From Arbacia lixula (taxonomy: Eukaryota > Echinodermata > Echinoidea > Arbacioida > Arbaciidae): DNA of 64,000 nucleotides. A program made the translations under genes and the position numbers. The notes beneath the pieces were generated by a model that searched no databases, was not told where the DNA came from, and saw only the letters and a list, made by a program, of their open reading frames with translations. The stretch is taken from positions 19,367,736-19,431,735 of the forward strand of contig OZ022580.1 of the NCBI GenBank assembly GCA_963669155.1, written 5' to 3'. Position 1 is the first letter of the stretch. Every line of letters starts with the position of its first letter. Shown here in pieces: positions 7,825 to 33,189 of the stretch.

Positions 7825-9031
7825 GAAAATGAAGATGCACATACTGTACTGTACATGTATGTACACTTTTAGTTTTATGTTGTATTCAACTTTGGACACA
7901 CATTACAGTCACAATGTGTTCATGTCCACTGTATAATGTATGTAGTACATTACATGTTGAAACTTCCCTAGAAACTGCGATACAAAGTATGGAAGATATG
8001 AGGAGCAGTTGAATTCCAGCTTGGACAATACTGTACTTAGGCTAACATACTTGCCCCTGGGAAGACCTCTGGATATCATACAAGCAGGCATCATCATGAA
8101 GCTGTGTCTGGTGATGTACTTTACACTATAATGTGTGTCATAAAAAATATGCTGATTTCTTTTGCTATGGGATTAGCAGCTGGTACAGGCACTGACAGAT
8201 GTATCCCTTATTGTGGGAGCCTGCAAATATCACTGAGTTACAGCATATCATATGCTACAAGGTGTGTCATTAAACAATTTATAGTCAGATGTTTTCTTTA
8301 TTTACAGAAGCTGGGACAGGCACTCACAGAATTGTCTCTTACATTGGAGATGTATTAATACCATTGATTTATACATGTGTGGTAATGTTGCTTATACTAG
8401 AAACATAACAAGGTGTGCTGATAGACGAAAATGAAGATGCACATACTGTACTGTACATGTATGTACACTTTTAGTTTTATGTTGTATTCAACTTTGGACA
8501 CACATTACAGTCACAATGTGTTCATGTCCACTGTATAATGTATGTAGTACATTACATGTTGAAACTTCCCTAGAAACTGCGATACAAAGTATGGAAGATA
8601 TGAGGAGCAGTTGAATTCCAGCTTGGACAATACTGTACTTAGGCTAACATACTTGCCCCTGGGAAGACCTCTGGATATCATACAAGCAGGCATCATCATG
8701 AAGCTGTGTCTGGTGATGTACTTTACACTATAATGTGTGTCATAAAAAATATGCTGATTTCTTTTGCTATGGGATTAGCAGCTGGTACAGGCACTGACAG
8801 ATGTATCCCTTATTGTGGGAGCCTGCAAATATCACTGAGTTACAGCATATCATATGCTACAAGGTGTGTCATTAAACAATTTATAGTCAGATGTTTTCTT
8901 TATTTACAGAAGCTGGGACAGGCACTCACAGAATTGTCTCTTACATTGGAGATGTATTAATACCATTGATTTATACATGTGTGGTAATGTTGCTTATACT
9001 AGAAACATAACAAGGTGTGCTGATAGACGAA
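7825..9031. repeat. Exact 602-bp tandem duplication
   Basis: The stretch starting GAAAATGAAGATGCACATAC at 7825 starts again at 8427, and all sequence compared between the two copies (through GCTGATAGACGAA) is identical. Each copy contains two decayed versions of the acceptor edge of the Hook exon at 9200. Perfect identity means either a very recent duplication or an assembly artefact. Confidence 0.92.
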
Positions 9032-9199: not shown

Positions 9200-9332
9200 G
9201 AGCTGGGCCAGGAGCTGACAGATTTCCCGCTGCCAGACCTGGGCAGCATAGGGGAGCATGCAAACACTGTGGAGCTGGGGAGGCTACTACAGCTGGTGCT
9301 GGGCTGTGCAGTCAACTGTGACCATAAGGAGG
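9200..9332 (+). CDS. hook: Hook exon a: end of the Hook domain
   Basis: Acceptor TTTGTGCAG ends at 9199 and donor GGTAAG follows 9332; the exon is 133 nt, entering in phase 0 and leaving with one base of a Glu codon. It encodes ELGQELTDFPLPDLGSIGEH and then the VELGRLLQLVLGCAVNC segment, the last helices of the Hook (CH-like) domain. It is preceded by at least five decayed copies of its own acceptor edge (AG at 8179, 8307, 8781, 8909, 9049). Upstream exons for the first ~95-100 residues were not found in 1-9199. Confidence 0.95.
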
Positions 9333-12300: not shown

Positions 12301-15300
12301 GCAGTCTTCGGAAAGGTGGTCATTAATGCAAGTTTTCCTGTATATTTGATTTCACAGAGTACATCAACACCATCATGGGGCTGGAGGAGTCCGTCCAACA
12401 CGTTGTCATGGGAGCCATCCAGGAGCTCATGACCAAAGAGATCCCCTCCAATACCCCGCCCCCAGAGGCCTTCTCAGAGGTCGAAGGTCAACTCACGAGG
12501 ACAAAAGCAGAAAAGGACGAGGCCCTGCAGAGATGTCATGAGTTAGACCAGCAGGTATTGGAGAGAGTTGGTGTGCAAGGGAGTGAGAGAAGGGAGGAGA
12601 AAACAATCTTGGAGAAATGGAAGGTGGGAGATGAGACAGGGAGAGGAGGTCAACTGAATCTAGAATGAAAGCAAAACGAAGTTGGATAGATGAACTAGAT
12701 CAGAAGATATTAAGAAGGCATTTTGTACAAGCAAGGGGGAAATTAGAGGAAGGGAAGAAGTGTGTGTTCATAAGTGTGATGAGTGTGTTTTCATAAGTGG
12801 AGGTCAAATGAAGAAGCAAGACACCCACAGTGTTATTGCAAACTAGATTGTGTACATGCTAGAGAGTTGTAGAGGAAAAGAGGTGAAGGCATGGAGACAG
12901 AGAAAATATGATAATGCGACAAAGTGAAGGAATAAAGTGAGAAAGAAAGAATGAGAGAGGGTGAGATAGATAGAGAGAAGGGGGTAGTAGTTATTCAGAA
13001 GTGGAGGCGAGGTCAAGAAGATAATGTAGGAGCAAGCCGCCCTACAGTGATGGCATGAACTTAATCAGGGGGTGTGCTAGAAATTAAAATGGGATAGGGC
13101 AAAGAGAAAGAGAAAGCTAGAGATAGAGGGAGGTGGAGAGATGTTGAGGAGAGAAGGAGAGATGGGTGGAAGACTAATGAGGGCAATGGGGGAGAAAGGT
13201 GAAATGCTGCAGAGGCATCATTATTAAGCTCAGCAGGTGTCCTAGACAGATGGGGTGAACGAGGAGACACAGAGAGGCAGGAGGGGACAGAGAATGGGAA
13301 GACAGAAATCAAACTCAGGGTTCACCCTATCAGTACCACAGGGACATGGCATGTGAAATAAATCAATGGGCTTTTCCTGCCTTGGCATTGAGAGGTTTAA
13401 CGCTCTCAGTGCCACAGGAGCATGGCATGTATGATAAGTCAATGGGCTTTTTCTGGCTGGGTTCAGATTAATTTAAGGACCCAGAGTAAATTTGTATGTG
13501 AGGGTGAAATAACAAGTGGAAGGGGTGGGGTACACATTAGATACTTAGTGATTGAAAGGTTGCCCTGATTCTACATTTTGACATAGATTACTTCCATAGA
13601 CGTTTGCCTCCAGGTTGTTGAATCCTATACAAATTCTGAAATTGTTTCTTCCTTAGAGTAATTATATTAAGGGCTTGCCTTGGTAAATTTACCACCAATT
13701 TGTAGACATTACGAAAACTACAAGCACTGAGTGAATTACATGGATATAGATTTTTAGTAAATGATAGATAATGATAATGTAATCCTAAATATGTTACTCG
13801 TTGCGGATAATTCACTAGCGATAATCATTTATCTCGCAATGTGTGGTCAACGGAATCTAAAAAAGATCACATTTCATGCGCCGCTGCAACACCTCATCAG
13901 TCGTGATACAAAATCATAATGTATTTACATTCTTATTGTCAGGTGGCCTCGTTACTTGAGGAGAAGAACGCCTTACAAGCAGAGAATGAACACCTCACAC
14001 TTAAACTTGATCAAGGAGATACATTTGGAGATCCAAGGTGAGATTTTGAAGTACTCTCTACATGTAAGTGTAACCCTTTTATAAAAAGAAAAAGAAATAT
14101 CTTTAATTGACTATTATATCTTTAGAAGCTTTGTTTTTTATCATTTTTTTTGCAAAATTTCAAAAAATTTGAGGGCAACTCTATACAAAATCCTGTACTC
14201 TGCTCTTTTTTAAAGGTGATACTTATAGGAAATGAAATCAAATAAATATATTTTATTTTATAATTGAATGAGTCATTAAAGCAATTTATGCAGCTAACAT
14301 GCCATGAAAGTGACCTATGAAATCGCCCAAGGGAAAGTGGCTTTGTGTGTACGTCACAGCCAGGATATGCTTCACAATGACTATTGTGTATCACACCTGT
14401 TAATCCACTAGTAACTGCCATCACAGTGTCATTAACAATGCATGATGCTTCTGGCGGAAAAGAAGCTGCGGATTGGCATGTGCGATGCACAGTAACGCCT
14501 CCCTTTTCTTACGTCAGACCTAAAGGCCGTTTTGGATGACAGTAGGGAAAATTTGTCCCCGAGAATAGGGTGATTGTTTTCATCCTAATTTCGCTTTTTT
14601 TTGAAGTGATATATTCTTTGAATGTCATCCAAGCTCATTGTATGGCTCATAAGCTTTCTGTAGCTAAATATCTTCATATTTTTGGATTTTCTATGAATAT
14701 CACCTCTAAGTTCTAAGGAATAATGAAAAAATAAGACACGAGATATTTGTATTGACTGATTTCTTCACTTTTCGACATTTTGGGCATTTGTGGTATTCAA
14801 TCATTGTAAATCTTATGTTGTGCATTCTCATTAACAGTGTTTGCGTGCAACTGAGATGTTTTACTTGAAACACTAGTTTCTTTATGTTTGCTGAATTATG
14901 TTATGCTCATGGAGACATTGATGGATTTCACAGAACTGGACAAACAAAATGAGCCTCTTTTGTTCTCGCAGAGAAACTGTTCCTACATAGTCATGTTCAT
15001 AATTGATAAAACACCTGGAAAGCACATGTTGAGAACACATAACTGATCGGTGACATGAACATGGGGTCAAAGGAAGAAGATTGAGTCATATCCTTCCATG
15101 TAGTATTACATGTATGTTCTATGATTTTGTCTAGCACATCTGCATATAGGTTTTCAATTATTGTAACTTACCATCAATAGTTACTACCATAGCAACAGCC
15201 AATGAGCTCTCTTTATTGCACCTGTTGCCATGGTCATTACCATCGATGGTATGTTACACTAATTGAAAACCTATATGCCACATGGCTCAGAAGGAGTAAA

Positions 15301-18300
15301 CTCAACACAAGCCACTGACTCATTTCTGCACCTGTAGACACACAAATCCTCTTTATCAGTACACAGTATTATGTCTGGGATAAGAGAAGTTAAGGAATTG
15401 TATGATTCTGTACAGCACACCTGCAGGGAGAAGGTATCAACAGCTGCAGGTATCGGTCGACCAGCTGCAGGAGGAGATGTACCGCATGGAGAGCACACGG
15501 GATGATTACCGCATCAAGGTGGATATGCTGGAGAGGGAGAACTTGGAGCTTGTCCACAAGGTGGGTCATCATGCAGGTTATCAGGTAGTGAGTGGTGGGG
15601 AGGGGGGAGGGGTTGGTTAAAGAATAAGGAAGGGGGGTAGGTCATCAGGATACGTAATATGGGGACTATTAGGGGTGACTACCGCATCTAGGTGGATATG
15701 CTGGAGAGAGAGAACTTGGAGCTTGTCCACAAGGTGGGTCATCATGCAGGTTATCAGGTTGTGAGTGGTGGGGGGGGGGGGAGGGGGTGGTTTGAGAATA
15801 AGGAAGGGGGAGTTGGGGGGGGGGGGGAGGTCATCAGGATACGTAGCACGGGGACCATTAGGGATGACTACCGCATCAAGGTGGATATGCTGGAGAGGGA
15901 GAACTTGGAGCTTGTCCACAAGGTGGGTCATCATGCAGGTTATCAGGTAGTGAGTGGTGGGGAGGGGGAGGGGGTGGTTAAAGAATAAGGAAGGGGGGGA
16001 GGTCATCAGGATACGTAATATGGGGACCATTAGGGATGACTACCGCATCAAGGTGGATATGCTGGAGAGAGAGAACTTGGAGCTTGTCCACAAGGTGGGT
16101 CATCATGCAGGTTATCAGGTAGTGAGTGGTGGGGAGGGAGGAGGGGGTGGTTAAAGAATAAGGAAGGGGGTGGAGGAGAGAGGGGGGGGGTCATCAGGAT
16201 ATGTAGCACAAGGACCATAAGGGATGACTACCACATCAAGGTGGACATGCTGGAGAGAGAGAGCTTGGAGCGAGGACATGAGGTGGGCCATTACTGGAGT
16301 AGTCTGAGAGGGGAATGGGTGTGGGTAGGAGTGATGGTGGGGATTATGAGAGGGGAATCCTTATCATAATGAGGGAGAGAAGCTAGAGCTAGTCCACAAG
16401 GGGGTCATTACTAGGGTAAGCTGGAAGAGATGGGGTGGGGTGGGGTGAGGGAGATGACGTCATGAGGATAGGGGGTTGGGGGGGGATCATTAAGATGTGA
16501 AGGATGAGGACCATTATAGATGACTACTTCATAAGGGTGGACATGCTAGGAGGACCTAGAGCTACATTTAGTTGGGTTGTTAACTCTCAACTTGCCAGTG
16601 GTAAAATCCCTCTGTGCCTTAGGTTTTCTCTATTGCAAAAATGCAACAGCAGTAGGTTAAGCGTTAAAGGGATAAGCTAAAAGCAGGCATGAGAATTTTC
16701 CGATTTTTATCGGAATTCCGATTTTTTTACATCAAAATCTGTGGTCGCCGAGTTCGATGTGAATTTGAAATAATATTTGGGGGGTAGGGTCTGGGGGGTC
16801 AAGTCATTTTTACACTCAGAAACTATAAAAGTACTTCACCATTTCGAGTGAAATCATTGCGTAGCGAGTCACCGCGAGGCTGAATCCTTACCGGGCCGCG
16901 CCCCGGGAACGCGCCTCACTGATCGATTTGTTCGCACGGAGCGCGAGATTGCACCGCAGATGCACACCACACGAGCTTCGGTCGCACCACTGCACTGATC
17001 GTGCGAGCCACTGAACTGATTCAGTGGTGCGAGCGCGACCGAAAATCGTGTAGCATGTGTGCGGTGGCTTTCAGTCTCATAAACAGCCGTAATGATGCTG
17101 TTTTTCGTTACACTCCACAATGTTCGCATCTTGGAGAGAAATTGACAGCATCGTAACGGCTGGTCTTTCAGACTATGCAGTATCAAAATGGCGGCATCCA
17201 CGCCGAAGTTCGTTGATCGCGATGGGGGAGAAGCGGACCCGAAAGAGATAGATAAATCCGTCAAAAATAGATGGAACTGGTCGTGGTGTGACCGTGTATT
17301 TTTGGAAGGCACTCCTGATCAACATTTAGTTGGGGATTGTTTTCGTAAGCTGTACAATCCCGGTGAAGCTTGGTGCTTATGGTGCAATGACGGCATAAGG
17401 TATGGCAACGGAGGTCTTAAAACACTGCGTCAGCATGCCACTGGAGACAAACACAAGAAGAGATACCGTGAAAGAAGGACCAACTACTGCCTAAACTTTG
17501 GTAATTTGAATACTTTGTTTGTGAATAATTACTGTACATGACATTCATTTTAAAGTTAAGCTTACTAACTTCGTGAACTTTATCTTTATTGATGATTATG
17601 ATTGAATGATAAGTCTAGATCTTGATCTTATTAATTTGATGTTGGGCTTCATCAATGACAATGACTAGTCTATGTTTTAAGTTTATCATTGTTTTGCCAC
17701 CACCCTTGGGGCAAGTCACGATGGTCCGAGGTATGGAGTGACACAAGCCCCAGGGGTGAGCCAGACTACCAAGCCATCGGGTGGTCTGTAAGGGCATGAA
17801 TGATTGATGGGTACCCAAGGGCATAGTCTAGACTGGGGCCCAGGCCAGGGTGCACCACTATGGGTTCCTTTTTCTATCACATTGGTACTCCAGAATGGCT
17901 TCCTATACCCCCTTAAAATGCTAAAACCCAGGAGCTTCAGGGGCGCTGCCCCTGAACCCCCGCCGTTGGTTTAATTTACTTTCAGATATTTTTAAAGAAA
18001 GTCATTCTCATGCCTGTAAAAGGGAAGTCATCCTTTAACCAATTTACTATGGTAACCAAGTTTACACAGTCCCAAGAAATGTGCAGTATTTTTTAACTAT
18101 ATTTTAAGTACTTTTTCAGAACATTTTAATGGTGTTGATTTGTGCTACTAATAGTTCAGTAGTTACTTACTTGGAGAAATATATTTTTGAAAAGGATTTT
18201 TACTTAACATTGTAAATCCCCTTTGGAAGGAAATACCACAGTATGCAGGAACACAATGCAAAGTGTACAGTAGACACATGGGCCAGTGAGTAAGCAGTAC

Positions 18301-21300: not shown

Positions 21301-24300
21301 TTTCATTGCATCACTGTCTGTTTGTTCTGCTGCTCAGAGATTGCGGGTGGAGAGGGATTCCTTGAAGGAGACAAATGAGGAGCTGACGTTAAACCAGCTA
21401 CATGGGTCAGCCATGGGGGACATAGACGGGCCAGAGCTGGGGTCTCCGGGATTGACAGCCATGCTCCCACCAGAAGTTAGGTAAGAAGTCAGCTATTAAA
21501 CTCTCTCTTTATTTTCTCTCCTTTCCCCTTTCTCTCTCTCTCTCCCTCACACTCTCTCTATATCTCTCCCTGTGCTCCCTCTCTCCTTTATCTCATTTTC
21601 ACCTTTCTCTCTCTCTCTCCCTCACACTCTCTTTATATACATGTACATTCATCTCTCCCCTCCTCCCTCTCTCATTTTCACCTTTCTCTCTCTCACACTC
21701 TCTCTATATACATGTACATTCATCTCTCCCCTCCTCCCTCTCTCATTTTCATCTTTCTCTCTCTCACACTCTCTCTATATACATGTACATTCATCTCTCC
21801 CCTCCTCCCTCTCTCATTTTCACCTTTCTCTCCCTCACACTCTCTTTATATACATGTACATGCATCTCTCCCCTCTTCCCTTTCTCATTTTCACCTTTGT
21901 CTCTCCCTCACACTCTCTATTTCTCTCCCCTTCCTTCCCTCTCTCTCTCTCCCAATCCATTCTATCCACCTTTGTACGTTATTCAAAAAGGCTGCCACCT
22001 TTAGAAATCAAACTCATTCAAACTACGCGTTTAATTGGCATGGCAAGGGTTTTAGTAATGTTCTTGAGAAATGGAATTATGAGGGTGGTTGTGTCTAATT
22101 ACATTTTATTTCAAATTATGTCAAATTGAGTCGTCTTCTTCTTTTCCTTCTATGTGTTGTTCTCATCTTCAGAGAGAAGATGATCCGGTTGCAGCACGAG
22201 AACAAGATGCTGAAGATGAAGCAGGGAGAGGACGCAGACGCCAACACACAGCTCCTCCAGAGCCTACTAGAGGATGCCAACAGCAGGAAAAATGACCTCG
22301 AGTCAGAAAACAGGTCAGGAAGCCAACTGTTTGTTGATCCCACACACAGAGTTTCTACTCCTATGCAAGACGATTTTTTGCCCCTTGAAAAAGGATTCTC
22401 TCTAAACCCGGTCAAAGTGCCATAAACGTGCATGGAATTGTGGGACAGCTTTGCAGCATATTTATATATGTTACATCTCACCACTGCGACCGCTGCGCCA
22501 GTAAAGTTCACATAGAATCGCTTTTGCTCGGATAGTTCATGGTCACAATCCTTCATTTCACTTCTATTAGATGGTATCTATCTGTCAGACAAGAATTGTT
22601 TGAGTTTTCAGAACCATTTTACTGCAATATTGTTATACATGTAGATTTGTACGTACCAGAAGGGGTTAAATGACCCGCAAAGTGGAAAATGATATTGCCT
22701 TACAAAGTTTGAACATATTTGCGGTGGTGAGAATTGCTCCTCAATGAGATATTTGTGTAATAATGTAAGCAAAGGACAAATAAATACAGAGAGACAAAGA
22801 AAACTCCATTTTGCCACAATTGTGCTGCCGTGGGGACCTAAGACTGGAAATGTGACGTCACCTAACTTGCACAAATCCCATGACCAAGTTGAGCAATCCA
22901 GCCAATCGCAGAGTCGTACAACTGATCGGATCTTGTCATCTGCATCTTCTTCTTCTTTCTTGTGAGTTAGTAGTACTGTATATCAGGCTATTTCTTGGAG
23001 CTGTGTAAGCCAGTTGATTTTTGTCATCTACAGTGCCTTCAGAGGTCCTGTTTGTTACGTATTTCCCTCACTGGGCTCCTATCTGTTTTCCACTGCAGAA
23101 TCAACAACCAACGTATTCTAGCACTACAAGCAGAAATCGAGGAGCTGAAACAGCAACAGCAACAAGAAGGATTGTCATCAAACGTCGTAGGAGAGGTAAG
23201 CATTATCCCTGTCAGTCCCAAACCTTGGAAACGATGTGGGCGTATACATACATGTGTACCTGCTCCATAAACCTCTGCTCTTTCATTCAAGAGATGTTAC
23301 TAGTAGCCACTGACGTCTTTCCTAATGTTCTCTTTCTTGACAATCTCTTTGTTTAAAACCTGTAATGCTGATGGAAGCATGCGGTGTGTAGTTTTTGAAT
23401 GTGAATAAATTAAGAATTGTATTTTTTTTCACTTGAATGCACATTGTAAAATGCAGAGTGGGCCAGTATGTCTATGATGTGGTTTTTGCATTTATGCTAT
23501 CTGTCATAATCGTAGAATAGAGATATCTTAACATATTGAATAATCCAATAGATTACACCTTATTTATTTGGACCATTCTAAAGTTGACAAATTATTAATT
23601 TGGTAAAAATGAGGTATTCATCCATATATCCATTGCCAAATATGTTGCTAATGCATTGGTTCAGGATCATTACTAATACATCCCCATATTGTATAGAATT
23701 CTGTCCTCAAAAAAGGTGTATATCTGCTACTGTATTACAACCCCACTATATCCTCCCTCTCTTTTTGGCCAAGTTCCCATACATTCTTGTCAATCTTCTT
23801 ATAACCAATGCATAAGTATATTATCCTTATTCAAAGGTTATCTAATGAATGTGGTTATGTACTCCGTACCTCTCTTTCTCTTCTGACAGACCATTGAAAA
23901 TGTTATAAGCAGCACAGGGAGATGTGAAGACTGGAATGTGTAACCAAATTTTTAACTCATTCTGAGTAAAGATAAAGGTCAGAAATGGTGACAGGAATTT
24001 GGTACGGGCTAGTAAGGGACAAGCATGGCATTGTCAGGGTAGATTCAGCAATGCTAATGTGTAATGGCAATACCCTTTGGCTCTATTATATCAGTAGAAA
24101 TCAATCAATCAACCTTTGTCTTTACAAGTCAAACAGGCTACTGACTTATTATTAACACATGTGCACATATTAGGTTGTAGTACTAGATTGTGTTTTTATG
24201 GCAACAAAATGTATCACAAATTGAATGTTTAACACAGAATCGTAAGGTTCAGTGTATATACTAGCATGTACAGTGTTCTAGAATTGACATACAGTCTGTG

Positions 24301-27300
24301 AAACCTGTCGTGTTTACGGAGCATGTCATGGATCTACTGTTTATCTCGTTGGCCTGCTCTTGGCCACTAACCTGAGAGTTTAATATCTTCCCCCAAACCT
24401 ACCGCCCACTCACTTGCAGTCTTCCCCCGGAAAGTATCCACCATCTTCATCATCATCATCATCGGTGAATGCAGAAATATCTAATGAGGTACACCATCTG
24501 AGTTTTGCCCCCCCCCCCCCAAGCCCTCCCCTGCCCCCTTCCCTTTTACACATAATTCACACACTCTATATGAAGCTTCATTGAGGCATGCATTTTGTTT
24601 GAGCTGTGCATTTTGATGACTGACTGTACTAACTCCACACGTTTAAAATACTGATTGAGTTTTTACCTTTTCATCACAACAGTTTTACAGAGGTTGAATA
24701 ATTTGATTAACATAATAAGCAACTTCCTTTTTTTTGTAACCACATCACACAATGATGCATACATGGCACACACACTTAAATACATACAGTGTGTAGCTTA
24801 ATTGGAATAACTACAGTGCTACTACAGATGAGACTTGTTATGTAATTTGCTTTTGCCATTTAAGTACCGGTAAGGGCAACCATGATGCCATCTGAGAACT
24901 GACCAATGTTTATTGAATTGGTTTCCCAAGATGGACATTACTGCTGATTTGATGAGTGAGAATTTAAGTTGGAACTTCAAAGAACCATGTTCTCGTTTGG
25001 CTTGTGTGCAAAATATCACAGATTCGGTTGTTGTTGTTTTTTTCATTTTTCTGTTCAGCTTTCTTATCATCTTGTTTGTCTCTCTTGTTCCTTTTTGTCC
25101 TCCTTGTTTACCATAACTCTTCTTGATCCTGATATTTTTCATTTAGTCTTCTTAGAGGATAAGAAATAAGTTAAACAGAAAAATGATAGGAATAATAAGA
25201 TTTTTTTCTTTTCTTTGTCCTCTTCCTTCTAATCTGTCTCTATAAAACAATATTAATCAAGTTTTTGCTAAAAAAAATCAACAAAAGACAGTCAATTTTA
25301 GTATGTCAGTAGCATATATATCAAATAAATTGATTTGAAAAGTAGATCAAATCAAATCAAATTATTTTTATGCTCAGAAAATCAACAGAAGACAATTTTT
25401 TTTTAGTATATCGATATCATGTATTGAAATATCAGCATGGCCTTGACATCTTTACACCGTGACTTCTGTAAACCCACCTCGAAAAAATATGATTTTCTCC
25501 TGCATCCTTCATTTGATACGAAACAAAGCAGTCTTTGATGAAATCATTAGTCCCATGTGGTTGATTTGAATGTAGGACTGATAGCATGGTACTCCTGTGT
25601 AATAGCTTCACACGATCCAAGGTAGACAGTGTGACGTGCATGTACAGGGATTTTTATTAAGTGATCTATCGGATTAACAGGGTTTCACTTTCTTTCCATC
25701 TATAGTAATGTTCTTAGTGAAAGGGCTTTCTGGGGTAATTACATTTTGAACAGAAATGTGAGGCTTACACCTAATAGAAGTAGCTCCATCTTATAAACGA
25801 ATGGGAAACAAGTCAGACAAAGATCTTGGCATCATAAGGATTTGAACCTTTTTTCATTAATCACTAAATGGTGTTGCTGTTCGTTATAAGACATGAGCAC
25901 TATTACAAATACTTACTTTGGAATCAATTTTCACTAATACGGGTCCATTACATGTATGTTGTTTGAGGTGAAAATCAGTTATCGTTTATTCAAAGTAATT
26001 TTTCTGCTGCACAATTTTCCTTCTTTTATTGATAGTAATGTTCTTCTGAATTGTTTTAAGTTGTAAGTCATGAGTTCTGCAATATTTATTTTAGAATTGA
26101 TTTTGACTCATAAGGGTTAATTCCACGTTCCTTATGGGAAATTTCTGTTTCACTGTGTGTATAATACTGTGATAACTACATGTATGCACTATTTCAGGAT
26201 TTGATTTGTTTAATATGAAATAGCAGATTTACTTCTTTTAGTACACTGAAAGTTTTCATTTGACCAGTGTTTCCCTTCAGAACTTCTATGCCACATGAGT
26301 TGAAAGCTTTGCAGTTTTAAGACAAGTGCTAAAATTGGCAGTTATATCGGGCTGTAATTATGGCAGAACCTTTATGTCATTATCATTGTGTCCGGATTTT
26401 GATAATTTTCAAGGATTTTATGATTTTTAGATGATTTTATCTGGTGTCCTGAAATCGAACAAGGATGGAACTCATGTTCATGGCAGAATGTCACTCCATT
26501 GATACCGGTTCCTGTAGTCTATACCACTACTACCTTGTACCTAGTGGAAAGGAACTCTGAAAGAATACAATAGGCAAGGTTTGATGATTGGGTCAAGAGA
26601 TTCACAATTTCCAATTGTTTGCGAATGATACAGAGAGGAAAGTTGTCCCATGATGCACTGTGCACATTTTGGTTTTGTTCACAGTCATGTCGCTTCTGAT
26701 CTCATACACTAGACCGGAAACAGACATGACAGCGCACGACTGCACTCATCTCCAAATGTGACTTTGCGGTACATCATAGGATGACTTTTCCTTGTATATG
26801 ATATGGAGAGAATTTAAAGTATACATTCTTTTGTGACAGCAGAGATGACATTATATGACCAGGTCCAAAACCAGCAGGAATGTTTGTATTCCTAAAACTT
26901 CCAGAGTGTATTGCAAATAGCCTCCTGCTTTCAGCTCCCCAGAATGCATTTTCTGTGCTTCTGAGCCCCTCTATAGAAACGACAGCACATTTATTTATTT
27001 ATTTATCCACAGGATTGACTGGAGTAGAGTGCTTGCTGTTCATGCATTTTGTTTTTATTTTGTCAGCATGAAACTTAAAGGTTGTGTGTCCCTTTCACAG
27101 ATAACAAACATGTCACTACCTGAGTGTACATGGAGGAAAATGCTGTTTCAGATCATGAAATAATCCAAAAGTGATTTTGAAAAGGGTTTAAACTGACAAT
27201 TACATTTCACCTGGAACATTGACCAGGCTGTCTACAAGTATAGTGTAATACTTGAAAACACTTCCACTGAAAAACATACAAGTATCTTGAACAGCAGAAT

Positions 27301-30300
27301 CTAAGAAACTCAGTGAGATCAAGGCTCCAACCTAAGAATAGGTCTTGTCATCTGTGTGATAAGGGCAGATTATGCAAGAAAAATTGTGATTTGATTGATA
27401 CCTCCAACTTCATTTTTCATTTGAAAAAAAAAAAATAAGCTTGAGAGACAAAATACAAACTAATGCATATTTTATGCTGTACGTGAATTCCACTTCACTG
27501 TCTGTTTCATATTTCACAAACTGGACCTACCCATTCTACTTGTGGTCCATGCAATGTTTTACTGAATTTGATTTTGTCTACGAAAGGGGTGCACTACCTT
27601 AAATATACCTTGAGTTGACCATGGGACACACTAACTTCATCCACTTGTCCAACTGTTTTCATTTATTTACAGGAAAACTAACAACCATTCTGCTGCAAGT
27701 TTGGACTTGAAGTCACTGTGCATGTTCTTATTATTTGACTAATTGTGTTTCCATGAGATACTGACATGCATTTATATTTTCCCCCATTTATCTATACCCC
27801 CCTTTCCTCGCATCTCCCTTCTTTCCCAATTTTTTTTCCCGACTGCATCCATTTTATTGTATGTCCATCTACCCCTCTCTTCAATAAATCAGTTTGTGAG
27901 TATGACTTGACATTTTATGATTTGATTTGGCAATTTGCATTTTGCTTTTCCGGCTGCAGGCTTTTTGTGCGCTTTGAAGTATGTGTGTGCCGTGAAAATA
28001 GATCCTTTCATTTTAGCAATTTTATTTGCATTCTTCTTCAATTTCCAATTATGGATGATAAGCCACATTGGGCCATGTTGCATACATTTGTTAAACTACT
28101 GCTACTTATTATTGATGGTAACTACCATGGCAAGAGCAGTAAAGGGAGCCCATTGGTTGCTACCATGGTAGTTACCATTAATGGTAAGTTACAACAATTG
28201 AAAGTATGCAACAGTGTCCTAGTTGTAAGAGAATCATAAAAGGAGCTAAAAATTGCCAAGATTTTTTTACCTCTCCTTCAGTTTGCCATCAGTTACAAGA
28301 AACACAATTTGCACTTATTTGATATGCTGTCTATCACTTTTGTCTTCTCATTTACATTCAACTCTCAAGTTTAGAACCACAAGGTTGCCCTATGACTAAT
28401 GGCAGATTTGTAGGGAAAGATGATCATAATATCAATTGTGTTTTCCAACAGACATATTAGTTCATTTTTTTCAGCTTGTGTAACATCATGACTTTATTTC
28501 TATGCTTCTCTTCTCAAACTCTGCTGACAAGTTCTGGATAGTTGGTTGCATCTTGATAACATTCCCTTTGCATTACAATTGCATGCTTTCAATACCGCCA
28601 GCAATGTCTAGTTTGACTGCATTTCCCCCTAATTATACGAATATAGCCTGCTGCTTTCTGTATCATCAAAGTAACCTTTAAAATGTGTCTGATCATTCAC
28701 ATTTGTTTATGTGTCAACTCTTAATACTACCCACAAAAGATTATATGATCTTTCACTGTGTTGTCACAAGAGTGGTACCTATTATTTCATGCATTACAGA
28801 GATTATTTTCAACACTCTTCCTTCCATGAATAAGAATAACTTATCATTTCAAAGGAAAAGCAATACCAGCTTTATATTCAACTTCTCTGGCAGAAAAGGA
28901 TATCTTAATAGTTTGACCATAAATAGTATTGTATCCTCAGGGAAATCACTACATGTTGTGTTTTATTCAGAAGTGAATTTACTGCATTTGTCTGTGGCAT
29001 TTCTAAATCTTTCATTGTTTTCTCCGGAAGGATGCTACATGTATATTGTAGTTCAGAAATTACTGATTTTGACAGCATTTATATGCAGTATGTGTATAGT
29101 GTTAGTTAAGGTGATATAATTAGTAAATATATCAGTACTCATTATACATGTATGTGATTAGCTTCTTTCTTATAGACTATACTCACATTTACAACTGGGC
29201 ATATTGTGGTACAGCACTCCAGTGCTTAGAGATAATGTGACATGCAGTGATAAAGGAATGGCATCATATTGCATCATGTTCTTACACTCTTGTTACTGAA
29301 CATTGGTAGATTACATCTCTGCATTGTGTGATCAACAGCGTGAAGTCATGTACAGTATGTACATGTTTCAAGCTATCATCAAGTTCTCACCCACTATATT
29401 GTGCAATGTGTATTTTACATACATTTACAAGTAACTGCGATAAGAATTCCCACTCAATGTTCATAGTAAATTCATGTGAAATGATGTGATTACCATTCAA
29501 CATCTCCCCCTCGGTTGACCAAATTCATAAATTAATATTTGTATTGAGAAAGAATTTGTAAATACACTCCCTGTATGTGCATTAATTTTGCTTTGTGCTG
29601 TGTTCATTTCAAGCTAAAGTTTCCTTTTCCTTTTGCAGTTTTTCAAGCTACACTGTAGTATTTTGTATTCCTCTGTCATTTATTTCTTGAAAAACATTGA
29701 TAGGAGCATCTCCTATTTTTCTTTAAGTTGAAGGATATTATTATGTTAGGTTTTAAAATGGCAACACTACAGATACAAAACAGACTGTTATCCTCAAACT
29801 GAGCATGCATTCCATTGAAAACTAATTAAATGACAACAAATACAATTTAGATATGATGTTTTGGAAAATAGAAGAGCAAGAGTGCAATAAACAATTCCAG
29901 CATGAAGGTTAAGTGGTCATTCATGTTAGTTTTGCATTTAAAAATCATACTACCTCTGTGCTTTATCTGTATCATTTGAACTACTTTATTCATTTTACGT
30001 TATGTACTTCAGATGAAATTCCCAAATGTATTATTCTTAATATTTAAATGAAAATCAGATTGAACCAGAAGATTTTAAAGTCAAGATTGATCATGATACC
30101 TTAAGAGTTAAACATGTGAAATAGTTTTACTCGAAACAACAAAAGATGTGCATATTTTTGCAGGATAGAATTATGAACTAGAAACAATTGAAATCTGCCT
30201 GTGATATTTCATTTCTACAACTTGTGGATGTTATTTCATATTTTCATCCTACAGTAAATTTCATTGCTGATGACGTGTTTTATCAATTTCTCTTTTTGTG

Positions 30301-33189
30301 AATTTATAGAATCAAGAGTTGAGGAAGAAGCTACAAGAACACAAGTGAGTATGGAGTATGGAATATGACATCTATTTCATAGTCTGTAGATCTATGGCTT
30401 ATGAGTTAAAATGAAAAACATTACATGTTGTATAAATATCATCTTCATGTTGTACTGAGAGCGGTACTTGAGTGGTACTCCGTTATCAAATATAGAAAAA
30501 TGTTTTGGTTGCAAAGTAATTGTTGCCATAAATACTTTCTAATCAAGCTTGGTTTGAGGGACATGATAAAAAAAAAAATTGTGGGGGGCAGGCATGGAGC
30601 AGCCTTGGGAAATATATGGTGGACAACATTAAGTAGAAGTTGTCAAGCAACAATCATGATTAATCTCAGACTGAATTATGTGGATCAGTTCCAGTTGACT
30701 AAACCTTTCTTGTATTTGTATGCATCTATTCTCAGAGAGAAGCTACGAGAGAGTGAGACCGAACTTCAGCGAAAGAAAGCTCACATCGACGACCTGGAGC
30801 CAAAGTTCACAACGACGAGTAAGTCCTCATACAGCTTGCGTTAAACCTCTGTGTGCCAATCAGGAGCCATGAATACAAATCCATACAGGAGCATTGTTGT
30901 CTGATACATTCAGGTTTGACTAAGAATTATCCTTCCCCACAGCTTTCAATATTAGCACTCATATCTCCCACCAACCTTCTAATGATATTTCTTATCATGG
31001 GGCAAGTAGGAAGCAAATACATTTCCCAAGAATCCCTCTAACCATGAACCATGTAATGGGGACCATGATCTTACTTTGGATACAAAGAAGAAGGAGGAGG
31101 AAGAGAAAGTTCCACTATCTGTGGTCATATGACACACTTTAACCAGTCAGTGAACAAAAATGATATTACCTGTGCCCACCCCCCCCCCCCCCCTTGATTC
31201 CTTCCATACAGATGTCCAGGTGTTGAACGTAGGACATCCTCCAGAAGAAGAAGGAAGAAATATTTGAACTATTTGTGGTCATGTGACATACTTCAGCCAA
31301 TTAATGAAGAGAAATGATATCATTCATACTCACCCGCCCCCCTCCTCCTCCACATCCCTCCCTTACAGGTGCCCAGGTGGTGACCCTCAGGGACGTCCTC
31401 CAGAAGAAGGAGGATGAGATGCGCAACATGGAGGAGCGCTACCGCAAGTACCTGGAGAAGGCCAAGTCAGTGATCCGCACCCTGGACCCCAAGCACTCCA
31501 GCACCGCCTCCTCCTCCGAGATCCAGCTGCTCCGCAACCAGCTCCAGGAGAAGCAGAAGCTCATCGAGCATCTTGAGGTGAGGAAGGTTGCTGTTGTTGT
31601 TGTTGTTTCTGTTCGGACTGTTGCTATCGGCAATACTGTGTCATCCCCGCCGCAATATACCCAGGGCATGGAAAGGAGAGATTCTGGAGGGTGTCACCAC
31701 TGCTTAGAGTGTGTGCCAAGCAATACAATGAATACAATACAGGCAAATGTGCTGTCATATCTCACAAGTATGAGCAAATGTGATCGTATGACTAGGTTAC
31801 ATTTACATTGTTCTTTGGTGCATGAAGAAGTGCATGCATGCAGTGGTGTTTGCAATACAAGATTCTGACATTGCGGACACCACAGTGGTGTCCATATACA
31901 ATTTCTTCTATTTATCATGAGTTTTTAATCAATACTGATTATGCACTTGCTGGCATTGGTGGAGGAATTCTTGTTCCCAGAGTATCACTAAACAATATGT
32001 ATTGTTATAGGATAGTTTTGTTTTTTTTAATTTGAGCATTCATTGTAAACTGGTATTCCATACCAGTGGTCTTGTGTAAAGGAGAGTTGAGGGATATGAG
32101 CTTATTACTTATGGGCTGAAACTGACTAGATTTGCATGTGCCTATCATTGACAAGTTCACACATCAGTGCCTCCATTCATCTTTGTTGACAGCATGAGAG
32201 AGATAAGTCCAAGGTGACCAGAGATATGGAGGAGAAACTGGTGGTCTCAGCGTGGTATAACCTGGTAAGTCAATCACTTTCTGCTTCTTTCTTTTGTTTA
32301 ACTCTTTAAGTGCCATGTGTGGGTTTTTCCACCGTTAGAAACAGGGTTGCCGTTTTACAAAAGTCATGAAACCTGGCATGGGTCAGCAGTCTACCCAAAC
32401 GACAACTTGTATTAAATCTGACAGTCATAGATTCGTGGACCATTTCATGAAAAGTGAAAAAGTGAAAAGTGAATACAACCACGTGGTGTCACTGAAAGTT
32501 TTACTATTTTCTACATATCGTTTAGTGAAAAACTATTGTTGTTAAACATTTGAAACATAGCGACCATAGTCTAAGATCGTAATCGTATTGTCCCTGTCAG
32601 GCTCTTAGCATTGCTCCCTGTGAATGATGATATATGACAGGCAAAAATATATGTATTCAAGTTTGGATAAGGTAGGTCAAAGGTTAAAGGTCAGAGGTCA
32701 AGGTTAATCCGTAAAATGTCACGTTTTACAAGTACATGATAACTCGGGTAAGGAGCAGGGCAACTCCCACGTTATCTGCTGGATGGACCACAGGCTATGA
32801 ATCAACTTCAAATGCCTTACAGAGTGCAATTAAGCAACACGCCTTTGATTACTGCAGTTCTATGGCAATATTCCACATCCTAACTGGACTAGGAGGGTTC
32901 ACGAAGCAGGAAAGTCTAACCGTGAGCAACGGGTTGAGAAGGCTGGTCCGAATGCACCCTTGGTTATAAGAAAGGGCTTGGGGAGGAGAAACACTGCCCT
33001 GTGTCATCTATTTCTTTATTTCCCCCCCCCCCCTCTCCTCATTCACAGGGCATGCAGCTACACCGGAAGGCAGCGGAGGACAGGTTGTCCCAGACCAGCG
33101 GGGGTCAGTCCTTCCTGGCGAGGCAGAGGCAAGCCTCCAGCCGGCGATCGCAAGCCATCCTCAACAACAGTGCCAACACGTCCAGATAA
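9200..33189 (+). CDS. hook: Hook-family dynein-dynactin adaptor gene (3' part; exons joined)
   Basis: Joined CDS: 9200-9332, 12358-12554, 13943-14037, 15416-15560, 19610-19822, 20439-20603, 21338-21480, 22173-22313, 23099-23195, (24420-24488 cassette), 30310-30344, 30736-30818, 31369-31577, 32193-32264, 33049-33189. Every intron is GT..AG and all phases agree, giving 622 residues without the cassette. The sequence aligns along its whole length with human HOOK proteins: GEHANTVELGRLLQLVLGC near the start, then EESVQHVVMGAIQELM, RLQHENKMLK, YLEKAKSVIRTLDPK and VSAWYNL/GMQLHRKAAEDRL. HOOK3 is 718 residues, so about 95-100 N-terminal residues are missing. Known of the family: cytoplasmic homodimeric coiled-coil adaptors that link dynein-dynactin (via the light intermediate chain) to FTS/FHIP-marked endosomal cargo and act in endosome motility. 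Inferred here from homology. Which vertebrate paralogue it is closest to cannot be settled by eye; invertebrates usually have a single Hook. Confidence 0.96.
10847..10922 (+). repeat. G-rich tract in Hook intron
   Basis: About 75 nt consisting almost only of G runs of 3-13 separated by single T, A or C, on the sense strand, so the nascent RNA would carry it. It has the spacing expected of G-quadruplex-forming sequence. ORFs read across it are compositional artefacts. Confidence 0.75.
11143..11222. repeat. Near-perfect 33-bp-arm hairpin (MITE-like)
   Basis: Arms 11143-11175 and 11190-11222 are reverse complements with one mismatch (GTCAAATTAAAGATCATAAG... against ...CTTATGATCCTTAATTTGAC) around a 14-nt loop. 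No coding content. Probably a tiny MITE or the relic of one. Confidence 0.85.
12358..12554 (+). CDS. hook: Hook exon b: dynein LIC-binding helix and start of coiled coil
   Basis: Acceptor TTTCACAG ends at 12357, donor CAG/GTATTG follows 12554; 197 nt. It completes a Glu codon and continues YINTIMGLEESVQHVVMGAI and QELMTKE. This is the conserved helix of Hook proteins that contacts the helix of dynein light intermediate chain; the Gln of VQHV and the Ile of GAIQEL, which match HOOK3 Q147 and I154 known to matter for that contact, are both present. A charged coiled-coil start (EVEGQLTRTKAEKDEALQRC) follows. The 3' edge of this exon is repeated in old, decayed form in the next intron. Confidence 0.95.
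12643..13245 (+). repeat. Old array of donor-edge copies of Hook exon b
   Basis: The end of exon b (GAGGTCGAAGGTCAACTC ... CCCTGCAGAGATGTCATGAG ... CAG/GTATTGG) recurs in decayed form: ~12643-12715 (GGTCAACTGAATCTAGAATG), ~12800-12870 (CCCACAGTGTTATTGCAAAC), ~13002-13085 (GCCCTACAGTGATGGCATGA) and ~13180-13245 (CTGCAGAGGCATCATTATTA then CAGCAG/GTGTCC). Marker spacing is 217 then 165 bp. Most copies have lost the donor GT; the last keeps one at 13237. Confidence 0.65.
13319..13470. repeat. Two-copy 76-bp tandem repeat
   Basis: CCACAGGGACATGGCATGTG at 13336 is repeated as CCACAGGAGCATGGCATGTA at 13412, each followed by TCAATGGGCTTTT. The spacer word GGTTTAACGCTCTCAGTGCC resembles short words near 32297 and 58987, so it probably belongs to a dispersed family. 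Confidence 0.7.
13943..14037 (+). CDS. hook: Hook exon c: coiled coil
   Basis: Acceptor TTGTCAG ends at 13942, donor AG/GTGAGA follows 14037; 95 nt, leaving two bases (AG) of a Ser codon completed in the next exon. It encodes VASLLEEKNALQAENEHLTL and KLDQGDTFGDP, aligning with the HOOK3 segment VAALQEEKSSLLAENQ and the DP(N)SPAGRR linker that follows. No repeats of its edges were seen. Confidence 0.93.
14038..15415 (+). other. Hook intron c-d
   Basis: 1.4-kb AT-rich intron. Its only recognisable element is the hairpin MITE at 15142-15278, about 140 nt before the acceptor of exon d. Nothing else is seen. Confidence 0.8.
15142..15278. mobile_element. Hairpin MITE with TTACCATC arms, copy 1
   Basis: 137 bp. 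GCATATAGGTTTTCAATTAT at the left faces AATTGAAAACCTATATGC at the right; further in, TTACCATCAATAG and GTTGCCATGGTC repeat the symmetry. Relatives are at 28081-28210 and, partially, 37985-38096. Confidence 0.82.
15416..15560 (+). CDS. hook: Hook exon d: coiled coil
   Basis: Acceptor CTGTACAG ends at 15415, donor AAG/GTGGGT follows 15560; 145 nt. It encodes STPAGRRYQQLQVSVDQLQE, then EMYRMESTRDDYRIKVDMLE and RENLELVHK, aligning with HOOK3 SPAGRRHLQLQ..DDYRIRCEELEKE. The last ~60 nt plus the donor and ~110 nt of intron are tandemly repeated from 15666 to about 16560. The exon body is continuous only with the first donor, so that one is taken as functional. Confidence 0.95.
15666..16560 (+). repeat. 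Young tandem array of the donor edge of Hook exon d
   Basis: The last ~60 nt of exon d (GACTACCGCATCAAGGTGGA through CTTGTCCACAAG), its donor GTGGGT and ~110 nt of G-rich intron are repeated. Donor GT positions: real 15561, copies 15734, 15923, 16095 and 16283, then a copy at 16401 with the GT lost and a last trace near 16515-16565. Spacing is 173, 189, 172, 188 bp. Exonic parts of copies 2 and 3 are still open and encode the same residues as the exon; copy 1 has AAG changed to TAG. No pyrimidine-rich acceptor precedes any copy, so they are not complete exons. Confidence 0.92.
16865..17240 (+). promoter_or_regulatory. CpG-dense, promoter-like segment of the transposon
   Basis: Base composition changes sharply from the AT-rich intron to a stretch with many CG dinucleotides (for example ACCGGGCCGCGCCCCGGGAA) just upstream of the ATG at 17188. 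No TATA box is obvious. Position and composition suggest the element's own promoter; activity is not shown. Confidence 0.4.
17188..17541 (+). CDS. Zinc-finger first exon of a transposon-derived protein
   Basis: ATG at 17188 opens MAASTPKFVDRDGGEADPKE, followed by the conserved-looking block WNWSWCDRVFL and a finger-like CLWCNDGIRYGNGGLKTLRQ then H-ATGDK-H: C-x2-C ... H-x5-H, as in BED or U1-type DNA-binding fingers found at the N terminus of hAT-type transposases. A possible donor (CTTTG/GTAATTT, GT at 17501-17502) suggests the true exon ends at about 17500 and that residues after CLNFG are read-through. It lies inside the transposon 16684-18016 and in the same orientation as hook. No downstream transposase exons exist in the window, so this is either a relic or a promoter with a first exon that could splice into hook exons. 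Confidence 0.55.
   Translation: MAASTPKFVDRDGGEADPKEIDKSVKNRWNWSWCDRVFLEGTPDQHLVGDCFRKLYNPGEAWCLWCNDGIRYGNGGLKTLRQHATGDKHKKRYRERRTNYCLNFGNLNTLFVNNYCT
19255..19596 (+). mobile_element. tRNA-derived SINE abutting exon e
   Basis: Begins with a tRNA-like head: box A-like TGGTGTAGTGG at 19264-19274 and box B-like CAAGTTCCAGCCC near 19308-19320, about 35 nt apart. It continues with a SINE-type body and ends in GTGGTATATAAAAACTGTGT and (ATT)n to about 19596. The acceptor of Hook exon e is at 19608-19609, so the tail occupies the place of the branch point and pyrimidine tract. Confidence 0.65.
19610..19822 (+). CDS. hook: Hook exon e: coiled coil
   Basis: Acceptor CTCTTGTCAG ends at 19609, donor GAG/GTGAGA follows 19822; 213 nt, phase 0 at both ends. 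It encodes NDELQSLAEEARSLKDEMDI, then LRHTSDKVTKYE and LGDLKRQVKILEDKNTMYMQ, one of the best conserved parts of the Hook coiled coil. The acceptor sits about 14 nt beyond the (ATT)n tail of a SINE. The 3' edge is copied three times further into the intron. Confidence 0.96.
19823..20345 (+). repeat. Donor-edge array of Hook exon e with G-rich minisatellite
   Basis: The end of exon e (ACCATGTACATGCAGAACAC, CATGGAGCTTGAAGAG, donor GTGAGAGG) recurs with donors at 20066 (GAG/GTGAGA), 20201 (GAA/GTGAGA) and 20341 (GT changed to AT). Spacing is 243, 135 and 140 bp. Between the real donor and copy 1 lies a GGGAGGAGGGGG-type minisatellite (about 19826-19980). The shared intronic text includes ACTGATGACAATGTTGAGAC and AGAATGACGGTCAAGAA. 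Confidence 0.9.
20439..20603 (+). CDS. hook: Hook exon f: coiled coil
   Basis: Acceptor CCTTTCTAG ends at 20438, donor GAG/GTAAAC follows 20603; 165 nt, phase 0 at both ends. It encodes ELKKANALKSQIESYKRQVQ and a charged heptad-rich stretch ending QLQAESE, aligning with HOOK3 EELRKANAARSQLETYKRQV. No edge repeats were seen. Confidence 0.95.
20645..20802. repeat. Dispersed repeat family (MITE-like), intron copy
   Basis: The block from TGGTTCTAAACTATGCGG to TTCTTAAGAACCAGAAG matches, inverted, 33507-33645 (ACTGGTTCTAAACTATGGTG, TCAAATAGTGGTGATCA and so on in reverse complement). The ends (TGGTTCT / AGAACCA) are weakly inverted, as in a MITE. Confidence 0.6.
21338..21480 (+). CDS. hook: Hook exon g: coiled coil and flexible linker
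   Basis: Acceptor CTGCTCAG ends at 21337, donor AG/GTAAGA follows 21480; 143 nt. It encodes RLRVERDSLKETNEEL, a Gly/Pro-rich linker (GPELGSPGLTAMLPPE) and VR shared with the next exon; the same break in the coiled coil occurs in HOOK3 between RDSLKETIEEL and TPEIREKLIRLQ. A CT-rich 71-bp minisatellite begins about 100 nt downstream. Confidence 0.95.
21490..21960 (+). repeat. CT-rich minisatellite, 71-bp period
   Basis: Repeating unit contains ACTCTCTCTATATACATGTA, CATTCATCTCTCCCCTCC and CTCTCTCATTTTCACCTTTC. Units recur at 71 bp (for example 21712 and 21783). All three sense frames stay open because the unit lacks stops, so the long ORFs here are artefacts. It lies in the intron directly after exon g. 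Confidence 0.88.
22173..22313 (+). CDS. hook: Hook exon h: coiled coil, RLQHENKMLK motif
   Basis: Acceptor CATCTTCAG ends at 22172, donor AG/GTCAGG follows 22313; 141 nt. It encodes EKMIRLQHENKMLKMKQGED and a segment ending LLEDANSRKNDLESEN, nearly identical to HOOK3 REKLIRLQHENKMLK..LLQSLLDDANLRKNELETEN. It ends with AG of an Arg codon completed in the next exon. Confidence 0.96.
22314..23098 (+). other. Hook intron h-i
   Basis: 0.8-kb intron. 22798-22945 belongs to a dispersed repeat family that also occurs, inverted, at the right end of the window (63735-63870). Nothing else is recognised. Confidence 0.75.
22798..22945 (-). repeat. Dispersed repeat family, copy 1
   Basis: Read on the - strand it gives GATCCGATCAGTTGTACGAC, then GGCTGGATTGCTCAA and GGATTTGTGCAAGTTAGGTG, ACGTCACATTTC, matching 63735-63870 on the + strand over about 130 bp. 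Not seen elsewhere in the window. Class unknown. Confidence 0.7.
23099..23195 (+). CDS. hook: Hook exon i: coiled coil
   Basis: Acceptor CCACTGCAG ends at 23098, donor GAG/GTAAGC follows 23195; 97 nt, leaving in phase 0. It encodes RINNQRILALQAEIEELKQQ, more Gln residues and GLSSNVVGE, aligning with HOOK3 RLVNQRLLEVQSQVEELQKS. The Gln run is encoded by a short CAG/CAA repeat. Confidence 0.93.
24420..24488 (+). CDS. hook: Probable Ser-rich cassette exon of hook
   Basis: Acceptor CACTTGCAG ends at 24419 and a GTACAC donor follows 24488; 69 nt, open, phase 0 at both ends, so it can be spliced in or skipped without changing the frame. It encodes SSPGKYPPSSSSSSSVNAEI and SNE. A second in-frame donor (TCG/GTGAAT) at 24465 would give a 45-nt version. 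The Ser run comes from a (TCA)n microsatellite. Vertebrate Hook proteins have no such run here, only a variable linker. Existence is inferred from splice signals and phase alone. Confidence 0.5.
24489..30309 (+). other. Long Hook intron before micro-exon j
   Basis: 5.8-kb AT-rich intron. It holds a poly-C run at 24507-24521, a diverged ~106-bp duplication near 25270-25430 (ATCAACARAAGACA words) and a hairpin MITE at 28081-28210. Long open frames at 27766-28239 and 28685-29119 show no protein-like composition or splice context and are not called genes. Confidence 0.75.
28081..28210. mobile_element. Hairpin MITE with TTACCATT arms, copy 2
   Basis: Inner arms ATTGATGGTAACTACCATGG and CCATGGTAGTTACCATTAAT face each other; outer ends are CATACATTTG and CAATTGAAAGTATG. 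Same family as 15142-15278. Confidence 0.8.
30310..30344 (+). CDS. hook: Hook micro-exon j: coiled coil
   Basis: Acceptor TTTATAG ends at 30309, donor AA/GTGAGT follows 30344; only 35 nt. It encodes NQELRKKLQEH and two bases of a Lys codon, aligning with HOOK3 LLKKKLEEH. It lies after a 5.8-kb intron. Its identity rests on homology plus exact phase with the next exon. Confidence 0.88.
30736..30818 (+). CDS. hook: Hook exon k: coiled coil, DDLEPKF motif
   Basis: Acceptor ATTCTCAG ends at 30735, donor GA/GTAAGT follows 30818; 83 nt. It encodes KEKLRESETELQRKKAHIDD and LEPKFTTT, aligning with HOOK3 LEKLHEANNELQKKRAIIEDLEPRF. The final A is completed to a Ser codon in the next exon. Confidence 0.94.
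31050..31368 (+). repeat. Acceptor-edge copies of Hook exon l
   Basis: The real edge is TCCCTTACAG followed by GTGCCCAGGTGG...GTCCTCCAGAAGAAG. A copy with AG at 31211 reads CTTCCATACAG then ATGTCCAGGTGTTGAACGTA...CATCCTCCAGAAGAAG, with one base deleted so the frame is lost and a TGA follows. An older trace (AAAGAAGAAGGAGGAGGAAG) is at about 31083. Intronic GTGGTCATATGACACACTTT at 31121 recurs as GTGGTCATGTGACATACTTC at 31275 (154-157 bp period). Confidence 0.85.
31369..31577 (+). CDS. hook: Hook exon l: C-terminal coiled coil
   Basis: Acceptor CCTTACAG ends at 31368, donor GAG/GTGAGG follows 31577; 209 nt. It encodes AQVVTLRDVLQKKEDEMRNM, then EERYRKYLEKAKSVIRTLDP and EIQLLRNQLQEKQKLIEHLE. 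YLEKAKSVIRTLDPK is identical to HOOK3. Its acceptor edge has a frameshifted copy 157 nt upstream (AG at 31211) and a trace of an older copy about 155 nt before that. Confidence 0.96.
32193..32264 (+). CDS. hook: Hook exon m: conserved C-terminal motif
   Basis: Acceptor GTTGACAG ends at 32192, donor CTG/GTAAGT follows 32264; 72 nt, phase 0 at both ends. It encodes HERDKSKVTRDMEEKLVVSA and WYNL, matching HOOK3 REMEEKYIVSAWYNM at the start of the C-terminal region that in this family binds the FTS/FHIP cargo complex. Confidence 0.95.
32674..32706 (+). repeat. Short array of AGGTCA-type half-sites
   Basis: AGGTCA, AGGTTA, AGGTCA and AGGTCA in direct orientation spaced by one base, then AGGTTA directly adjacent. 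Spacing of one base is the DR1 arrangement used by HNF4/RXR-type nuclear receptors, but it could equally be a degenerate 7-bp microsatellite. It lies in the last Hook intron. Confidence 0.5.
33049..33189 (+). CDS. hook: Hook last coding exon n with stop codon
   Basis: Acceptor ATTCACAG ends at 33048, preceded by a poly-C tract; 141 nt including stop TAA at 33187-33189. It encodes GMQLHRKAAEDRLSQ, the conserved GQSFLARQRQASSRR motif and a short Ser/Asn-rich tail ending TSR. HOOK3 reads GMTLHKKAAEDRL..GQSFLARQRQATSTRR here. The 3' UTR begins at 33190; its end could not be fixed. Confidence 0.96.
   Translation, partial: GMQLHRKAAEDRLSQTSGGQSFLARQRQASSRRSQAILNNSANTSR

Follow-up and report, generated by a model that had tools for sequence, protein, structure and literature searches.

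Five exon-intron junctions of a single Hook gene in the echinoderm Arbacia lixula are accompanied by tandem, variously decayed copies of themselves, and the same pattern recurs in other genes of this genome. The arrays are probably splice-junction minisatellites of the kind named 'mirages', born frequently, tolerated at junctions and purged from exons. They lie in a window of 64,000 bp (contig OZ022580.1 of assembly GCA_963669155.1, positions 19,367,736 to 19,431,735), to which all coordinates refer unless another stretch is named. The initial annotation of this window had suggested that five affected junctions in one gene may call for a special explanation.

The 3' part of the Hook gene occupies 9200-33189 on the forward strand, as modelled from reading frames, splice sites and Pfam matches. 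The model comprises 14 exons plus one optional in-frame exon, is open up to its last codon and has AG/GT at every intron. The predicted protein matches PF05622, the HOOK coiled-coil domain (E 2.4e-184, positions 1-512 of 514), the last 66 positions of PF19047, HOOK_N (E 2.6e-26, positions 81-146 of 146), and PDB chains of Hook homolog 1 and Hook homolog 3. Judged by its predicted protein, which belongs to both the HOOK coiled-coil and the HOOK_N families, the gene is Hook. E1 (9200-9332), the first exon modelled, encodes the end of HOOK_N and supplies, with its acceptor edge, the authentic copy of the first array; E14 (33049-33189), the last exon, carries the stop codon. The donor edges of E2 (12358-12554), E4 (15416-15560) and E5 (19610-19822) are copied downstream, and the acceptor edge of E12 (31369-31577) is copied upstream; all of these exons are on the forward strand. 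The candidate optional exon (24420-24488) is 69 nt long, in-frame (SSPGKYPPSSSSSSSVNAEISNE) and bounded by AG and GT. A search for Hook relatives in a viral contig collection gave nine pattern matches and no true relatives, and searches of the window against Rfam (gathering thresholds) and for tRNAs gave no matches.

Other features of the window were noted in passing. At 345-3540 there are two tracts of ~366-bp tandem units (54-1077 and 2115-3390) whose outer ends resemble, by eye, inverted copies of each other, in the style of a fold-back element, and a stretch of ~220 bp occurs in two copies, 80% alike and hairpin-like by eye, at 3975-4193 and 5786-5999. The following were recognised by eye. 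The intron between E4 and E5 holds a probable DNA transposon (16690-18010) with ends CAGGCATGAG and CTCATGCCTG and a short open frame starting MAASTPKF. A short palindromic element is present in two introns (15150-15285 and 28085-28215), with a similar stretch at ~7400-8150 of the surveyed locus L016, and a large imperfect inverted repeat lies downstream of Hook at 36280-36660.

We took 70+70 nt probes from all 29 junctions of the model, including those of the optional exon, compared each with as much as 2 kb of sequence in either direction, and assessed significance from 60 dinucleotide shuffles with a fitted extreme-value tail. Significant junction-spanning tandem copies were found at five junctions and at no other: three donors (exon ends 12554, P 2e-4; 15560, P ~0; and 19822, P 1e-5) and two acceptors (exon starts 9200, P 9e-6; and 31369, P 2e-9). 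These are exactly the five junctions that had been named at the outset, and their coordinates all proved exact in the open gene model with its AG/GT introns. Among the remaining 24 junctions, 23 had P values of at least 0.046. The donor at 21480 (P 4e-4) was not counted, its sole match being a pyrimidine array confined to the intron, where it begins at a distance of 20 nt from the junction.

An unsupervised scan of 7.7-33.2 kb yielded seven arrays, four of which contain a junction (E1, E4, E5 and E12). Two more lie in the intron after E2: a 76-bp pair at 13325-13471 and, distinct from it, an array at 12773-13128 that overlaps the E2 copies. The junction crossing of the E2 copies was visible by the targeted test only, not by the scan. 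The seventh, a 71-bp pyrimidine-rich array (21501-21920), begins 20 nt downstream of the E7 donor, which it does not cross.

The five arrays, all on the forward strand, differ widely in preservation. Upstream of E1, decayed acceptor copies at 8114-8237, 8239-8343, 8716-8839, 8841-8945 and 8986-9077 (65-67% identity) represent three distinct kinds, two of which are repeated through a perfect 602-bp tandem duplication (7825-9031; 605/605) that includes part of the array. This duplication arose very recently, or else it is an assembly artefact that joins two haplotypes; within this one assembly it hints at a recent change in array length. The E2 donor is followed by four to five very decayed copies (12647-12759, 12800-12930, 13008-13161 and 13173-13301, at 62-65% identity, with a weak one at 12936-13007). 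Six copies follow the E4 donor (15659-15845, 15848-16021, 16022-16205, 16213-16370, 16371-16496 and 16504-16602), with identities to the authentic edge, in order of place, of 83, 94, 86, 68, 70 and 58%. The three exon-proximal copies are 90-95% like the authentic edge and one another and the three distal ones only 61-69% like these, from which it follows that the youngest copies adjoin the exon. A two-unit repeat of 361 bp fits the E4 array better than a single unit (93 vs 85% matches). Beyond the E5 donor, three copies (19999-20366; 80, 76 and 66%) come after a G-rich expansion at 19827-19969, and E12 is preceded by one clear acceptor copy (31089-31261; 111/152 columns, 73%, at a shift of ~155). 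We take weaker matches, at 54-58% identity, as chance or unclear. Images of the Hook junctions are spaced 99-243 bp apart, most of them 118-189 bp.

Every unit was initially described as straddling its junction, but the full exon part is not in every copy: that at 16371-16496 has 30 nt of it and that at 12936-13007 has 14 nt. The placement of each array on the intronic side was described correctly, yet it is forced, because whichever copy continues into the remainder of the exon is the authentic one by definition. Lastly, the arrays do differ in age, with identities from 58 to 94%, a two-unit repeat within the E4 array and a renewed duplication within that of E1; five junction-crossing arrays of different ages therefore bear out the view that the process is recurrent.

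To place Hook within its genome, we surveyed exons of three unrelated families identified by profile search, which gave 73 myosin, 60 chaperonin and 126 kinesin matches from the best-scoring 65 of 186 myosin, 84 of 84 chaperonin and 122 of 211 kinesin candidates. Chosen by position and exon density, 42 of the 73 listed myosin exons and 41 of the 186 listed kinesin and chaperonin exons (14 kinesin, 27 chaperonin) were examined, with edges taken as profile ends rather than verified splice sites. At P<1e-3, 12 of 84 myosin edges were positive, and nine were kept after the alignments were read. Dropped were L025 579, where the copy was 1.8 kb away on the exon side; L016 8155, which matched a mobile-element-like intron stretch; and L022 4616, which was weak in the exon. 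Three of the kept myosin edges (L013, L014 and L028 right) adjoin simple repeats and were retained for their exon part, and three others (L019 right, L010 right and L017 left) rest on the initial survey coordinates, their realignment having matched them to themselves. At the same threshold, eight of 82 kinesin and chaperonin edges were positive, and four (L033 4649, L034 2230, L033 2825 and L037 6394) were dropped. Clear junction-spanning copies, at donors and acceptors alike, were thus present at 9/84 myosin and 4/82 kinesin/chaperonin edges, or 13/166.

The cleanest case is a kinesin gene on contig C21, picked because its profile matches repeated and kept outside the survey counts, in which six near-identical decoy acceptor units, each a pyrimidine tract, CAG and ~60 nt of exon, stand at 105-111 bp spacing ahead of the true exon. 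Two observations were made in passing. Near this kinesin acceptor array, repeats around an upstream exon of the same gene (L029, 1900-2200) resemble, by eye, a donor-side array, and several myosin exon matches at C15:19562915-19567669 share one open frame of 1629 aa despite their exon-like spacing.

Hook does not stand out within this genome: the difference between its 5/29 junctions and the 13/166 surveyed edges has a Fisher P of 0.15. Other genes show the same pattern at a comparable rate, which leaves the step from five Hook cases to a special mechanism unsupported. Nor, in this sample of myosin, kinesin and chaperonin genes, did exon edges lie in arrays more often, position for position, than sites away from known exons. 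With a cut-off of P<1e-4 and no inspection of the alignments, 13/166 survey edges (nine myosin, four others) were positive. The same cut-off was passed by 215/1819 control positions (P 0.16), made up of 109/1163 drawn at random in the myosin stretches and 106/656 spaced on a grid in the other stretches. The control positions were all >250 nt from known exons, though some may sit at exons that the profiles missed; 1163 of 1200 random positions were used, the other 37 containing N.

Counted per array, the picture differs. The survey yielded 62 clusters, of which four single matches and six simple-sequence clusters were set aside to leave 52 complex arrays. Under a neutral placement model, in which seeds of 150 bp land randomly anywhere but in exon interiors and each junction is assumed to offer a 110-nt target, 4.2 of the 52 should cross a known exon edge; 14 did (P 3e-5), or 11 without three doubtful arrays (L016, L022 and L033; P 2e-3). 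Plain random birth does not give this 2.6- to 3.3-fold excess. Hook itself, a gene chosen for its arrays, gave 4/7 (P 3e-3), or 5/6 (P 6e-5) when the E2 pieces are treated as one array. Unit lengths were 100-200 bp in 32 of the 52 arrays and did not differ detectably between the 14 junction and 38 intronic arrays (KS P 0.37). Nucleosome-length units were considered and rejected: most Hook spacings are ~120-190 bp, but survey units range over 72-368 bp at junctions and 72-856 bp in introns.

The per-array excess is what would be expected if junctions were hot spots, where splice-site sequence, G-rich donors, chromatin or transcription-linked breaks start duplications preferentially at edges. 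Among arrays with a strong best match, 6/24 cross an edge against 1.8 expected (P 0.006; 5/24, P 0.027, without the doubtful L016), and in three of the five Hook arrays G/C runs make up 0.073-0.151 of the bases, compared with 0.017 in other introns. The E1 and E2 arrays, however, are poor in such runs (0.005 and 0.031), the kinesin/chaperonin half of the survey has only 5/16 edge-crossing arrays against 2.6 expected (P 0.10), and the absence of any per-position excess also speaks against a hot spot. The expected number hangs, moreover, on the assumed target size, and old junction arrays stay visible for longer because their exon copy is conserved, although the continuing excess among strong-match arrays suggests that longer visibility may not fully account for it. 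Enrichment measured by plain overlap was discarded as a test: when the Hook junctions were shifted circularly, P was 0.22 for 4/7 arrays and 0.049 for 5/6 with E2 merged, weak values that arise because the arrays are long. A stricter statistic, requiring that an array end inside one exon edge and contain no whole exon, was matched by no shift tested, yet selection alone would yield the same. We therefore regard junction hot spots as a rather unlikely cause of the arrays. A two- to three-fold junction preference is possible in a survey that is small and whose expectation depends on the assumed target.

The copies fill the Hook introns with decoy splice sites, as had been supposed from the first inspection. 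With copies doubled by the 602-bp duplication counted once, 13 of 18 retain the core AG/GT; overall identity predicts 9.1 (P 0.047), which hints weakly at constraint. By predicted U1 pairing, three E4 decoys are as strong as their authentic donor (-9.9 kcal/mol), and the first E5 decoy is as strong as the authentic E5 donor (-9.7 kcal/mol). Ten decoy donor positions were tested, nine of them with GT, and each is predicted from the reading frame to bring a premature stop if used, as is the E12 decoy acceptor; at the three E1 decoy acceptors examined, entry in E1 phase likewise runs into stops. Because decoy use would lead to a premature stop, it should be selected against; we expect that it is harmful and that the authentic, outermost site normally wins. 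Normal splicing of Hook is assumed throughout.

These same properties would suit decoy clusters kept for function, delaying or tuning splicing or sending part of the transcript to decay: several decoys match authentic donors in predicted strength, AG/GT is retained somewhat above expectation, and use of any tested decoy donor is predicted to bring a premature stop. The copies nevertheless decay, down to 58% identity, the first E4 copy has, by eye in the alignment, an in-frame stop codon within its exon part, and the lancelet data, as far as the available text of PMC3087553 goes, suggest regular splicing. Selection for such a role is, in our judgement, very improbable. That the copies are an assembly error or chance similarity is scarcely credible: the letter-perfect 602-bp duplication could be two haplotypes set end to end, but other copies differ by 6-42% from the authentic edge, beyond what any assembly step makes, the five junctions lie far above dinucleotide shuffles, as the initial annotation had required of true copies, and the same pattern occurs on other contigs.

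The reading of the arrays as tolerated junction minisatellites would account for these results in the following way. Tandem duplications, mostly of 100-200 bp units, would arise often in and around the introns of this echinoderm genome, through slippage or repair. Where the duplicated segment lies across a junction, the outermost site (the most upstream donor or the most downstream acceptor) should still give a normal mRNA. A duplication straddling a junction would then be nearly neutral and could drift, re-duplicate and decay, whereas one within a coding exon would alter the protein and be lost. The sparing of exon interiors, initially seen as a puzzle for simple minisatellite birth, is thus a prediction of purifying selection.

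The echinoderm identity of the host agrees with the mitochondrial sequences of the same assembly, which comprises 590 contigs totalling 607 Mb and includes a mitochondrial genome of 15,740 bases (contig C590). In COX1, AAA stands where Asn is expected and TGA is used as Trp, and the tRNA-Lys has the anticodon CTT; we take Asn at these AAA positions to be conserved. On the strands seen, the tRNA order (Glu, Pro, Gln, Leu, Ala, Val, Leu(UUR), Ile, then COX1, Arg, Lys) is of the sea urchin/sea cucumber type and differs from the orders typical of sea stars and lancelets.

Tandem duplications of exon-intron boundaries were described, and named mirages, in the Adh3 gene and the globins BflGb6 and BflGb9 of the lancelet (amphioxus). 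The available part of that report describes 150-160 bp units at an acceptor of BflGb6 (three or six copies, depending on the haplotype, at 81-100% identity), a donor-side unit of 157 bp in BflGb9, effects on both 5' and 3' boundaries with AG/GT in many but not all copies, and splicing that is apparently regular by RT-PCR despite the arrays; a role in intron gain was proposed (PMC3087553). An excerpt of a second report adds lancelet PGBD5, with imperfect repeats of 60 and 108 bp, and names troponin C as a further mirage case (PMC3902484). So far as these accounts go, the Hook arrays are alike in their minisatellite-like units across the junction, their spacing of mostly 118-189 bp, their occurrence at donors and acceptors (5' and 3' boundaries both affected) and their retention of AG/GT in many but not all copies. 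They differ in the echinoderm host, in the involvement of five junctions in one gene and in their older, more decayed copies, and the Adh3 units are shorter, at 10-72 bp (PMC3087553). The host of the known mirages is a lancelet and that of the Hook arrays is not; the lancelet is where mirages were discovered and is no part of their definition.

Two other systems bear comparison, in what is accessible of their descriptions. In the AGGT model of intron gain, tandem genomic duplication turns an exonic segment with AGGT into a new intron (PMC3443670). Splice-site sequence is likewise copied by tandem duplication here, but the Hook copies lie inside existing introns of an intact model, in which no new intron is seen. 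In recent human duplicates, minisatellite repeats at exon-intron boundaries can alter splicing, with units of ~30 bp on average in segmental-duplication genes (PMC2812944); the boundary position is shared, whereas most units here are 100-200 bp. A limited search of open-licence literature, in which sea urchins were the only echinoderms named, found no earlier report from an echinoderm, a weak negative. What is added here is the presence of mirage-type arrays outside lancelets, in an echinoderm, and the survey suggests that they are common in its genome.

A broader reading, which we offer tentatively, is that in sea-urchin-like genomes duplication across junctions may be pervasive and ongoing, with a mild edge preference (~8% of sampled edges). 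A considerable share of introns would then carry surplus splice sites and exon ends, on which changes of exon length and the gain of introns could draw at any time, in echinoderms and lancelets alike. If ~8% of edges do carry spare copies, the mirages of lancelets are no cephalochordate oddity, and the introns of this animal would provide natural test beds for how the spliceosome chooses among identical splice sites and for the rate at which tandem duplication moves exon ends or gives rise to introns.
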